Of a DNA stretch of 64,000 bases, positions 19,842 through 56,048 are shown piece after piece; the first letter of the stretch is position 1, and each line of letters opens with the position of its first letter. Under the pieces are notes generated by a model that ran no database searches, was not told the origin of the DNA, and saw only the letters and a list, made by a program, of their open reading frames with translations. The position numbers and the translations under genes are program-made. Source of the DNA: Azospirillum humicireducens (lineage in GTDB: Bacteria > Pseudomonadota > Alphaproteobacteria > Azospirillales > Azospirillaceae); the NCBI RefSeq assembly GCF_001639105.2, contig NZ_CP015285.1, forward strand, positions 984,501 through 1,048,500, given 5' to 3'.

Positions 19842-20034
19842 AGCTCCACCCGAGGGCAATCGCATTTGAAATCTAGAGTCCTATGAAGGGACTTCCGTCA
19901 TCCCCGCGAAGGCGGGGATCCAGAGTTCGCATGGCGAATCTGTTGGAAAAGCCTGGATCCCCGCCTTCGCGGGGATGACGGGTTTCCTTGAAAAGGAGCA
20001 TGATCTTCATATGCGATTGCCCTGAGCTCCACCC
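19842..20034. mobile_element. MITE-like non-autonomous element with target duplication
   Basis: A 173-bp segment (19852-20024) is bounded by 13-bp perfect terminal inverted repeats, AGGGCAATCGCAT (19853-19865) and ATGCGATTGCCCT (20011-20023); with one mismatch the match runs to 18 bp. Directly outside both ends is the same 10-bp sequence AGCTCCACCC (19842-19851 and 20025-20034), as expected for a target-site duplication. It contains no coding capacity, only an inverted pair of hairpin units. The transposase would have to come from an insertion sequence elsewhere; 8-12 bp duplications are made by several IS families including IS4. It sits 89 bp upstream of aspS. Confidence 0.75.
19895..19981. 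repeat. Inverted pair of hairpin repeats (REPIN-like) inside the element
   Basis: Two identical 29-nt units lie in opposite orientation (19895-19923 and 19953-19981) with a 29-nt spacer. Each unit is itself a hairpin, CCCCGC-GAAG-GCGGGG, flanked by GTCAT and ATCCAG. The spacer carries a small palindrome, TTCGC-ATG-GCGAA. Units of this CATCCCCGCGAA type are common dispersed repeats in proteobacteria. Confidence 0.85.
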
Positions 20035-20123
20035 TATCGCGGCTTGACTTTCGCGCGCGTCCGGTGTGGTGTGTCGGACCGCTTTTTCCGCCGGAATCCG
20101 ACCTTTTCAAGGTGTTTCGACCC

Positions 20124-21950
20124 ATGCACCCCTACCGCACGCACACCTGCGGCCAGCTTCGTGAAGAGAATGCCGGTGAGACCGTCCGCCTGTCGGGCTG
20201 GATGAACCGGAAGCGCGACCATGGACAGCTGCTGTTCATCGACCTGCGCGACCATTACGGCCTGACGCAGTGCGTGGTCGATACCTCCAACCCGGCCTTC
20301 GAGGTCGCGAACCGGCTGAAGCTGGAATCGGTCATCACCGTCACCGGCAAGGTGGTGAAGCGCACGGCCGAGACCATCAACGACAAGCTGCCCACCGGCC
20401 GCATCGAGCTGCAGATCGCCGAGCTGACCGTGGAAGGCGAGGCGGAGCAGATTCCGCTGCAGGTCAACCAGGACACCGACGCGGGCGAGGACGTGCGCCT
20501 GCGCTACCGCTTCCTCGACCTGCGCCGCGAGCGCATCCACGAGAACATCATGCTGCGGTCGCGCGTGATCGCCTCGGCGCGCCGCCGCATGATCGACCAG
20601 GGCTTCACCGAATTCCAGACGCCGATCCTCACCGCCTCCTCGCCGGAAGGCGCGCGTGACTATCTGGTGCCGAGCCGCAACCATCCCGGCAAGTTCTACG
20701 CCCTGCCGCAGGCGCCGCAGCAGTTCAAGCAGCTGCTGATGGTCGCCGGATTCGACCGCTACTTCCAGATCGCCCCCTGCTTCCGCGACGAGGATGCCCG
20801 CGCCGACCGCAGCCCGGGCGAGTTCTACCAGCTCGATTTCGAGATGTCCTTCGTCACCCAGGAAGACGTCTTCGCCGCCATCGAGCCGGTTCTGCACGGC
20901 ATCTTCGACGAGTTCGGCGGCTTCCGCCGCGACTCGAAGCCGGTCATCGACGGGCTGCCGTTCCGCCGCATCTCCTTCGCCGAGTCGATGCTGAAATACG
21001 GCAACGACAAGCCGGATCTGCGCAACCCGCTGGTCATCACCGACGTGACCGAGGTGTTCAAGCGCGACGACGTGGAATTCCGCGCCTTCAAGCAGACGCT
21101 CGAGAAGGGCGGAGTCGTCCGCGCCATCCGCGCGCCGAAGGTTTCCGACCGTCCGCGCAGCTTCTTCGACAAGCTGAACGACTGGGCCCGCGGCCTCGGC
21201 GCCCCCGGCCTCGGTTACATCGTCATGGAGGCCGGCGGCGGAAAGGGTCCGATCGCCAAGTTCGTGCCGGAGGCGGCGCAGGCCCAGCTGCGCGAACTGG
21301 CCGGTCTGGAAGACGGCGACGCCATCTTCTTCGTCTGCGACCAGCCCGGCCCGGCAGCCAAGCTGGCCGGCTTCGCCCGCACCCGCATCGGCGAGGAGCT
21401 GGACCTGATCGAGAAGAACGCCTTCCGCTTCTGCTGGATCGTCGACTTCCCGATGTACGAGCTGGACGAGGAGACCAACAAGGTCATCTTCAGCCACAAC
21501 CCGTTCTCCATGCCCCAGGGCGGCCTGAAGGCGCTGGAGACGATGAACCCGCTCGACATCAAGGCCTATCAGTACGACATCGTTTGCAATGGCGTGGAGC
21601 TGTCCTCGGGCGCCATCCGCAACCACCTGCCGGAAGTGATGTACAAGGCCTTCGAGATCGCCGGCTATCCGCCGGAGGAGCTGGAAGCCCGGTTCGGCGG
21701 CATGCTGAGCGCGTTCAAGCTGGGCGCCCCGCCGCACGGCGGCTCGGCCCCCGGCATCGACCGCATCGTCATGCTGCTGGCCGACGAGCCGAACATCCGC
21801 GAGGTCATCGCCTTCCCGCTGAACCAGCGGGCCGAAGACCTGCTGATGCAGGCCCCGGCGCCGGTCGATACCGCCCGCCTGCGGGAACTGCATCTGAAGC
21901 TCGACCTGCCCAAGCCGAAGGTGGCGGCACCGTCAGCGCCGCAGGCGTAA
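20124..21950 (+). CDS. aspS: Aspartyl-tRNA synthetase (probably non-discriminating type)
   Basis: Class II synthetase charging tRNA with aspartate, 608 residues. It has an N-terminal OB-fold anticodon-binding domain ([23 protein letters not shown]), motif 2 with [19 protein letters not shown], a bacterial GAD insertion domain, and motif 3 [14 protein letters not shown]. Many alphaproteobacteria use such an enzyme also to form Asp-tRNA(Asn) for GatCAB; this is family knowledge, not visible here. ATG 20124 follows AAGGTG and gives the conserved [12 protein letters not shown]. Upstream lies the MITE-like insertion; a strong terminator follows. Confidence 0.98.
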
Positions 21951-43223: not shown

Positions 43224-43286
43224 TTGCCCCCTTCCTAACGCTTGCCCCCTCCCCATCCCTCCCCCGCTTTGCGGGAGAGGGGGCAA
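43224..43286. repeat. GC-rich palindromic repeat, copy 2
   Basis: Short member of the family, between the convergent 3' ends of comEC and lexA. It has TTGCCCCC-TTCC-TAACGC, then the hairpin CCCCCGC-TTT-GCGGGAGAGGG, and ends GGGGCAAC. It probably also works as a bidirectional transcription stop. Confidence 0.7.
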
Positions 43287-51318: not shown

Positions 51319-51446
51319 GCCCCCTCCCTAACCCTCCCCCACTTTCAGTGGGAGAGGGAACTGCCGCCGCCATGCAAACTCTCCCCTCTCCCGCTGAAAG
51401 CGGGGGAGGGAGGGACCCGCGGCAAAGCCGTGGGAGGGAGGGGTCA
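51319..51446. repeat. GC-rich bipartite palindromic repeat, copy 3
   Basis: Located between the convergent 3' ends of the fmdB-like and slt genes. It begins with the shared CCCTCCCTAACCCTCCCC block, then hairpin CCCAC-TTTCA-GTGGGAG, spacer GGGAACTGCCGCCGCC, hairpin CTCCCGCT-GAA-AGCGGGGGAG, and a third small hairpin near 51417-51432. Confidence 0.8.
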
Positions 51447-55898: not shown

Positions 55899-56048
55899 GC
55901 CCCCTCCCTAACCCTCCCCCGCTCTCGGCCGGCCGAAGGCCGGTCCGATCGCGGGAGAGGGAACTCCGCCGCCCGCCCAAATACCCTCCTCCCAGCAAGC
56001 GTTCTACCCCCTCTCCCGCGAAGCGGGGGAGGGATGGGGAGGGGGCAA
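55899..56048. repeat. GC-rich bipartite palindromic repeat, copy 4
   Basis: Longest copy, between the convergent methyltransferase and aldo/keto reductase genes. It has the shared leading block, a first hairpin enlarged by GGCCGGCCGAAGGCCGG, spacer GGGAACTCCGCCGCC, AGCAAGCGTT, then hairpin CTCCCGC-GAA-GCGGGGGAG and GGGGGCAA. The AAGCGTT element also occurs at the edge of copy 1. Confidence 0.8.

Follow-up and report, generated by a model that had tools for sequence, protein, structure and literature searches.

The 173-bp segment that precedes aspS in the window (here, the whole stretch of 64,000 nucleotides that was analysed) is best explained as a non-autonomous MITE with ISAs1-family ends, moved in trans by an ISAs1 transposase with a 10-bp target duplication, a reading to which we assign a probability of about 0.93. 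The MITE before aspS is real, young and recently inserted. In its main points the reading of the earlier note is borne out, the proposed outward promoter being the one suggestion without support. Its movement in trans by a transposase is suggested by the shared ends and by the length of the duplication. The features of the region are the following.

19852..20024, + strand: MITE, GAGGGCAATCGCAT...ATGCGATTGCCCTG (sequence, folding, copies, empty site of relatives)
19842..19851, no strand: left target-site duplication copy, AGCTCCACCC (sequence; relatives with a single target copy)
20025..20034, no strand: right target-site duplication copy, AGCTCCACCC (sequence)
19852..19870, + strand: left terminal inverted repeat, GAGGGCAATCGCATTTGAA, with the outermost base G, not C (sequence; IS-end comparison)
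20006..20024, - strand: right terminal inverted repeat, reading CAGGGCAATCGCATATGAA on the minus strand (sequence; the 16 first bases are those of a G020 ISAs1-family end)
19895..19981, no strand: inner palindromic dimer of two CGTC-1-type REP units, CGTC ends outward (sequence; CGTC-1 description, PMC3733652)
20035..20123, + strand: native aspS leader, with a CTTGAC motif at 20043-20048 (alignment of relatives)

The earlier note had described a non-coding segment of 173 bp between identical 10-bp repeats, and this can be read directly in the sequence. It had also given 13-bp perfect terminal inverted repeats, or 18 bp with one mismatch. Indeed, the ends AGGGCAATCGCAT (19853-19865) and ATGCGATTGCCCT (20011-20023) are perfectly complementary over 13 bp, and the inverted ends reach 18 bp if one mismatch is allowed, the outermost base being G on the left and, read inward, C on the right. 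The stated distance of 89 bp to aspS is likewise correct, the ATG lying at 20124, 89 bp past the right duplication copy. The ORF list of the window has no ORF of at least 80 aa within the element, and a length of 173 bp without a transposase gene fits the size range of MITEs (about 70-500 bp). The window has one 13-bp inverted pair with identical flanking 8-mers, and 100 Markov-simulated sequences have none. Nearly the whole MITE forms a near-continuous hairpin, a feature that the earlier note had overlooked, with 71-nt arms that are 79% complementary, and its RNA fold reaches -114.8 kcal/mol versus a shuffled mean of -56.7 (z = -13.8).

Comparison with relatives shows that the segment was inserted. 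Of 45 genomes from the genus, that of the window included, 44 yielded the aspS leader and start, and 29 relatives could be read against the window minus the element and one repeat. The earlier note had named a sister strain with one AGCTCCACCC copy at an empty site as proof of insertion, and eight genomes of related species have such a site at aspS (G036, G024, G021, G033, G032, G019, G023 and G026); in G036, for instance, the uninterrupted sequence reads ...GCACGCTCCACCCTATCGCGGCTTGAC. Since a single target copy is found at the empty site in at least eight related species, the insertion is demonstrated. The MITE is absent from aspS in 29/29 relatives read, except for a possible end remnant in G044. 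In that genome, a single 13-mer, TTGCGATTGCCCT, resembles the MITE end with one mismatch; it is found 112 bp upstream of aspS, no more than one base from the insertion position, and the upstream sequence there is also unlike that of the other species. This 13-mer could be a remnant, a hot spot or a chance match.

A search of the same genome (6.86 Mb, seven contigs) for further copies, as suggested in the earlier note, recovered several, each with different flanks. A second copy, 100% identical, lies at C1:839524-839696 with an 8-bp duplication, GTGCGGGC, on either side; in the empty-site comparison, the sequence around it shows no conservation across the genus. A 116-bp copy at C1:2657874-2657989 has lost 57 internal bp between ATCCCCGC repeats. 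Its junction shows no target duplication, and relatives have no element at this site, the empty site reading GGTGAGGCTG. The same deleted form of 116 bp was also seen in another species, at a different site (G040, C69:80221-80335). An older copy of 172 bp at C1:3135723 is flanked by an imperfect 11-bp repeat (9/11), and end fragments are found on contigs C3 and C5. Outside this genome, plasmid p5 of Azospirillum lipoferum 4B, typed as mobilizable, bears a full copy that is 98.8% identical and lies at a different site, flanked by the 10-bp duplication ATATGATCCG. Several other Azospirillum species have more distant relatives of 172-174 bp, and some of these lie between perfect duplications of about 10 bp.

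The MITE ends, CAGGGCAATCGCAT, resemble those of ISAs1-family insertion sequences, which make 10-bp duplications. In Azospirillum, ISAs1-family ends have the form CAGGG..ATCGCAT; family members such as the resident 1223-bp IS, ISAzs11 and ISArsp11 (PMC6305408) share with the MITE both CAGGG-initial ends and the 10-bp duplication. The MITE has the CAGGG... ends of the ISAs1 members of the genus, with G rather than C as the left outermost base, and a 10-bp target duplication at aspS, the second copy having 8 bp. Exact 10-bp duplications flank 16 of the 20 ISAs1 loci in the genus whose ends could be recognised. On the other hand, ISAs1-family IS measure 1.2 kb, whereas the MITE has 173 bp, no transposase gene and no evident common interior; nothing evident is common to it and the resident IS beyond the ends. 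Full membership of the ISAs1 family was considered and rejected for the element, which is not an IS itself because it has no coding region.

Three intact and identical 1223-bp ISAs1 copies reside in the same genome. Their ends are of the form CAGGG(GA/TT)ATCGCATTTG, in full CAGGGGAATCGCATTTG / CAGGGTTATCGCATTTG, and they are flanked by exact 10-bp duplications (GCTCCCGGCA, TGCGGACCGC and GCCCCGATCC). The NCBIfam ISAs1 model NF033564 recognises their transposase, encoded for instance at C1:1690741-1691850, with E = 4.7e-102, and at the DNA level they share about 80% identity with ISAzs11 of Azospirillum sp. B510. When one mismatch to the MITE end is allowed, the matches in this genome include AGGGGAATCGCAT at C1:1466181, C1:1690649, C1:1825045 and C6:418610; the first three are ends of the 1223-bp copies and the last runs into an N stretch. 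The resident and MITE ends differ at positions 6-7, and at one end only one of 13 bases is different. A full IS with the same ends had been put forward as a further check. No full IS with exactly CAGGGCAATCGCAT ends was found in this genome, but nearly the same ends are resident, and in the congener G020 one end of the ISAs1 copies, CAGGGCAATCGCATAT, equals the MITE right end over 16 bases. Furthermore, a full 1.2-kb ISAs1 element on a Chloroflexi contig has the same 13-bp ends as the MITE.

Judged from these end sequences, the resident ISAs1 is likely the source of the transposase in trans. In the proposed mechanism, an ISAs1 DDE transposase would act in trans on the MITE ends, supplied most likely by the three resident 1223-bp copies or by a close relative with CAGGGCAATCGCAT ends. 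A staggered cut at the target would allow the 173 bp to be inserted and leave the 10-bp target duplication. The right end of the MITE now lies 99 bp upstream of the aspS start codon. The MITE and the resident transposase constitute a concrete, testable pair.

Mobilisation by a resident IS has been proposed for other bacterial MITEs, among them MITEPye1, which has IS1182-family ends (PMC11578231), and MITEAba12 (PMC6382973). Like both of them, the aspS-site MITE is short and non-coding, has terminal inverted repeats and target duplications, and occurs in few copies, and like MITEPye1 it is intergenic with a long hairpin; unlike either, it has ISAs1-family ends. The literature collection that was searched contained no description of ISAs1-related MITEs from Azospirillum. 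The ISAs1-ended MITE before aspS is a further example of a known element type, traced to its likely parent.

The interior of the MITE, as read from its sequence, appears to be a CGTC-1 REP-type palindromic dimer without coding function. Positions 44-130 of the element (87 bp) hold two units in opposite orientation, each composed of CGTC, ATCCCCGC-GAAG-GCGGGGAT and CCA. REPs of the CGTC-1 type have an 8-bp stem, a 4-nt loop and a CCA tail, and are frequently paired (PMC3733652). The inner 87 bp share the CGTC head, the 8-bp stem (AT first), the 4-nt loop, the CCA tail and the inverted pairing, as compared with the textual description in that paper rather than with its consensus sequence. A. lipoferum is one of the organisms from which CGTC repeats have been reported, and these were described as having no associated transposase genes (PMC3733652). 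Unlike the published CGTC-1 dimers (PMC3733652), the present one is enclosed in ISAs1-type ends and moved with them. Such a dimer travelling inside a DDE-transposon end pair bears on how these REPs spread (PMC3733652). It is mildly novel that a REP class reported without transposase rides within an ISAs1-ended MITE, and of all the parts only this cargo might come as a surprise to a specialist. The genome holds 45 pattern matches to CGTC REP units, most of them outside ISAs1-type ends.

Two other views of the element have to be weighed. Its position between divergent genes and its strong folding (z -13.8) would also suit a terminator, promoter or RNA with a regulatory function for aspS or for the divergent RNase D-like gene, one that only resembles a transposon. 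We consider this very improbable, for the element is missing at aspS in the 29 relatives, bar the possible remnant in one, and an identical copy lies elsewhere in the genome. Moreover, the promoter scan of the MITE region, at a threshold of 9 of 12 consensus bases, returned no site, and a structured RNA was rejected, the sole Rfam match being a sub-threshold plant miRNA hairpin judged to be a chance hairpin match. The earlier note had proposed a weak outward promoter at the right end, at about 19989-20016. The sequence TTGAAA-N16-TATGCG is indeed present, one base away at 19988-20015, but as a promoter it fails the scan, with 8 of 12 consensus bases. Nor is an outward promoter needed, because the conserved aspS leader lies downstream of the insertion. 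These 89 bp from the insertion to the start codon are intact and conserved among closer species, and their CTTGAC (20043-20048) would be the native -35 element of aspS; the insertion was probably neutral.

The other view holds that the segment is a REP/BIME-like palindrome whose origin or movement followed a REP-specific route, its ISAs1-like ends and target repeat being coincidental. Indeed, the inner 87-bp repeat is found at about 25 further places of the genome without MITE ends. However, the full 173 bp, ends included, recurs at different sites, each with its own duplication. Two free REP dimers that were tested stand, unlike the MITE insertion, at positions common to related species, and these two are old because relatives share their positions; no target duplication could be defined for them. 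We give hardly any credence to the REP-specific route, which is contradicted by the mobile unit being the 173 bp with ISAs1-type ends. Within the preferred reading, a MITE moved by an ISAs1 transposase, the mover could alternatively have been non-resident, of the ISAzs11/G020 type, perhaps plasmid-borne and now lost. The closest ends, with 16 identical bases, belong to the IS of the congener G020 and not to the resident one, and the near-identical MITE of A. lipoferum sits on a plasmid typed as mobilizable. We regard such a source as possible though the less probable one, given that the resident ISAs1 copies are intact and differ at one of 13 bases at one end. Furthermore, these copies were probably recently active, because all three are identical.

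Ends of this type extend well beyond the genus. A scan for AGGGCAATCGCATNTGAA outside Azospirillum gave at least 119 stretches in many phyla. Among 46 MITE-sized pairs of ISAs1-type ends across phyla, exact duplications were found in 19, all of 10 bp, whereas only 4 of 9200 random position pairs had an 8-10 bp match. Miniature elements of Azospirillum, Bradyrhizobium, Magnetococcales, Acidobacteria, Nitrospirae and Chloroflexi are in this way linked to ends of the ISAs1 type and to a duplication of strictly 10 bp. Their interiors fold strongly in 10/46 cases, versus 1/46 controls, so palindromic cargo is not universal. Bradyrhizobium sp. CSA207 (G045) has a palindromic dimer of about 111 bp, in about 30 copies, unrelated to the Azospirillum dimer; roughly half of its 20 best copies lie inside ISAs1-type ends, the others being without ends. 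It is rather unlikely that palindromic REP-type dimers have ISAs1-ended MITEs as their vehicles in more than one bacterial group (Azospirillum, Bradyrhizobium). If they did, and if some free copies were decayed vehicles, there would be a transposase for a REP class that has been reported without any. The Bradyrhizobium parallel is a lead, and it does not show that free REPs derive from MITEs.

Other repeats were noticed along the way. At C3:81154-81254, C6:560963 and C6:178854 of the same genome, CGTC REP units adjoin another shared sequence, GCAAAGTTCCTTTTGTTCCAGAGACTT..., apparently forming a second, different composite repeat. The window itself contains a palindromic repeat, CCCCCTCTCCCGCGAAGCGGGGGAGGGATGGGGAGGGGGCAA, at 43242-43283 and 56007-56048, two copies that are 98% complementary to each other, and also at 1454-1493 and 51380-51425.
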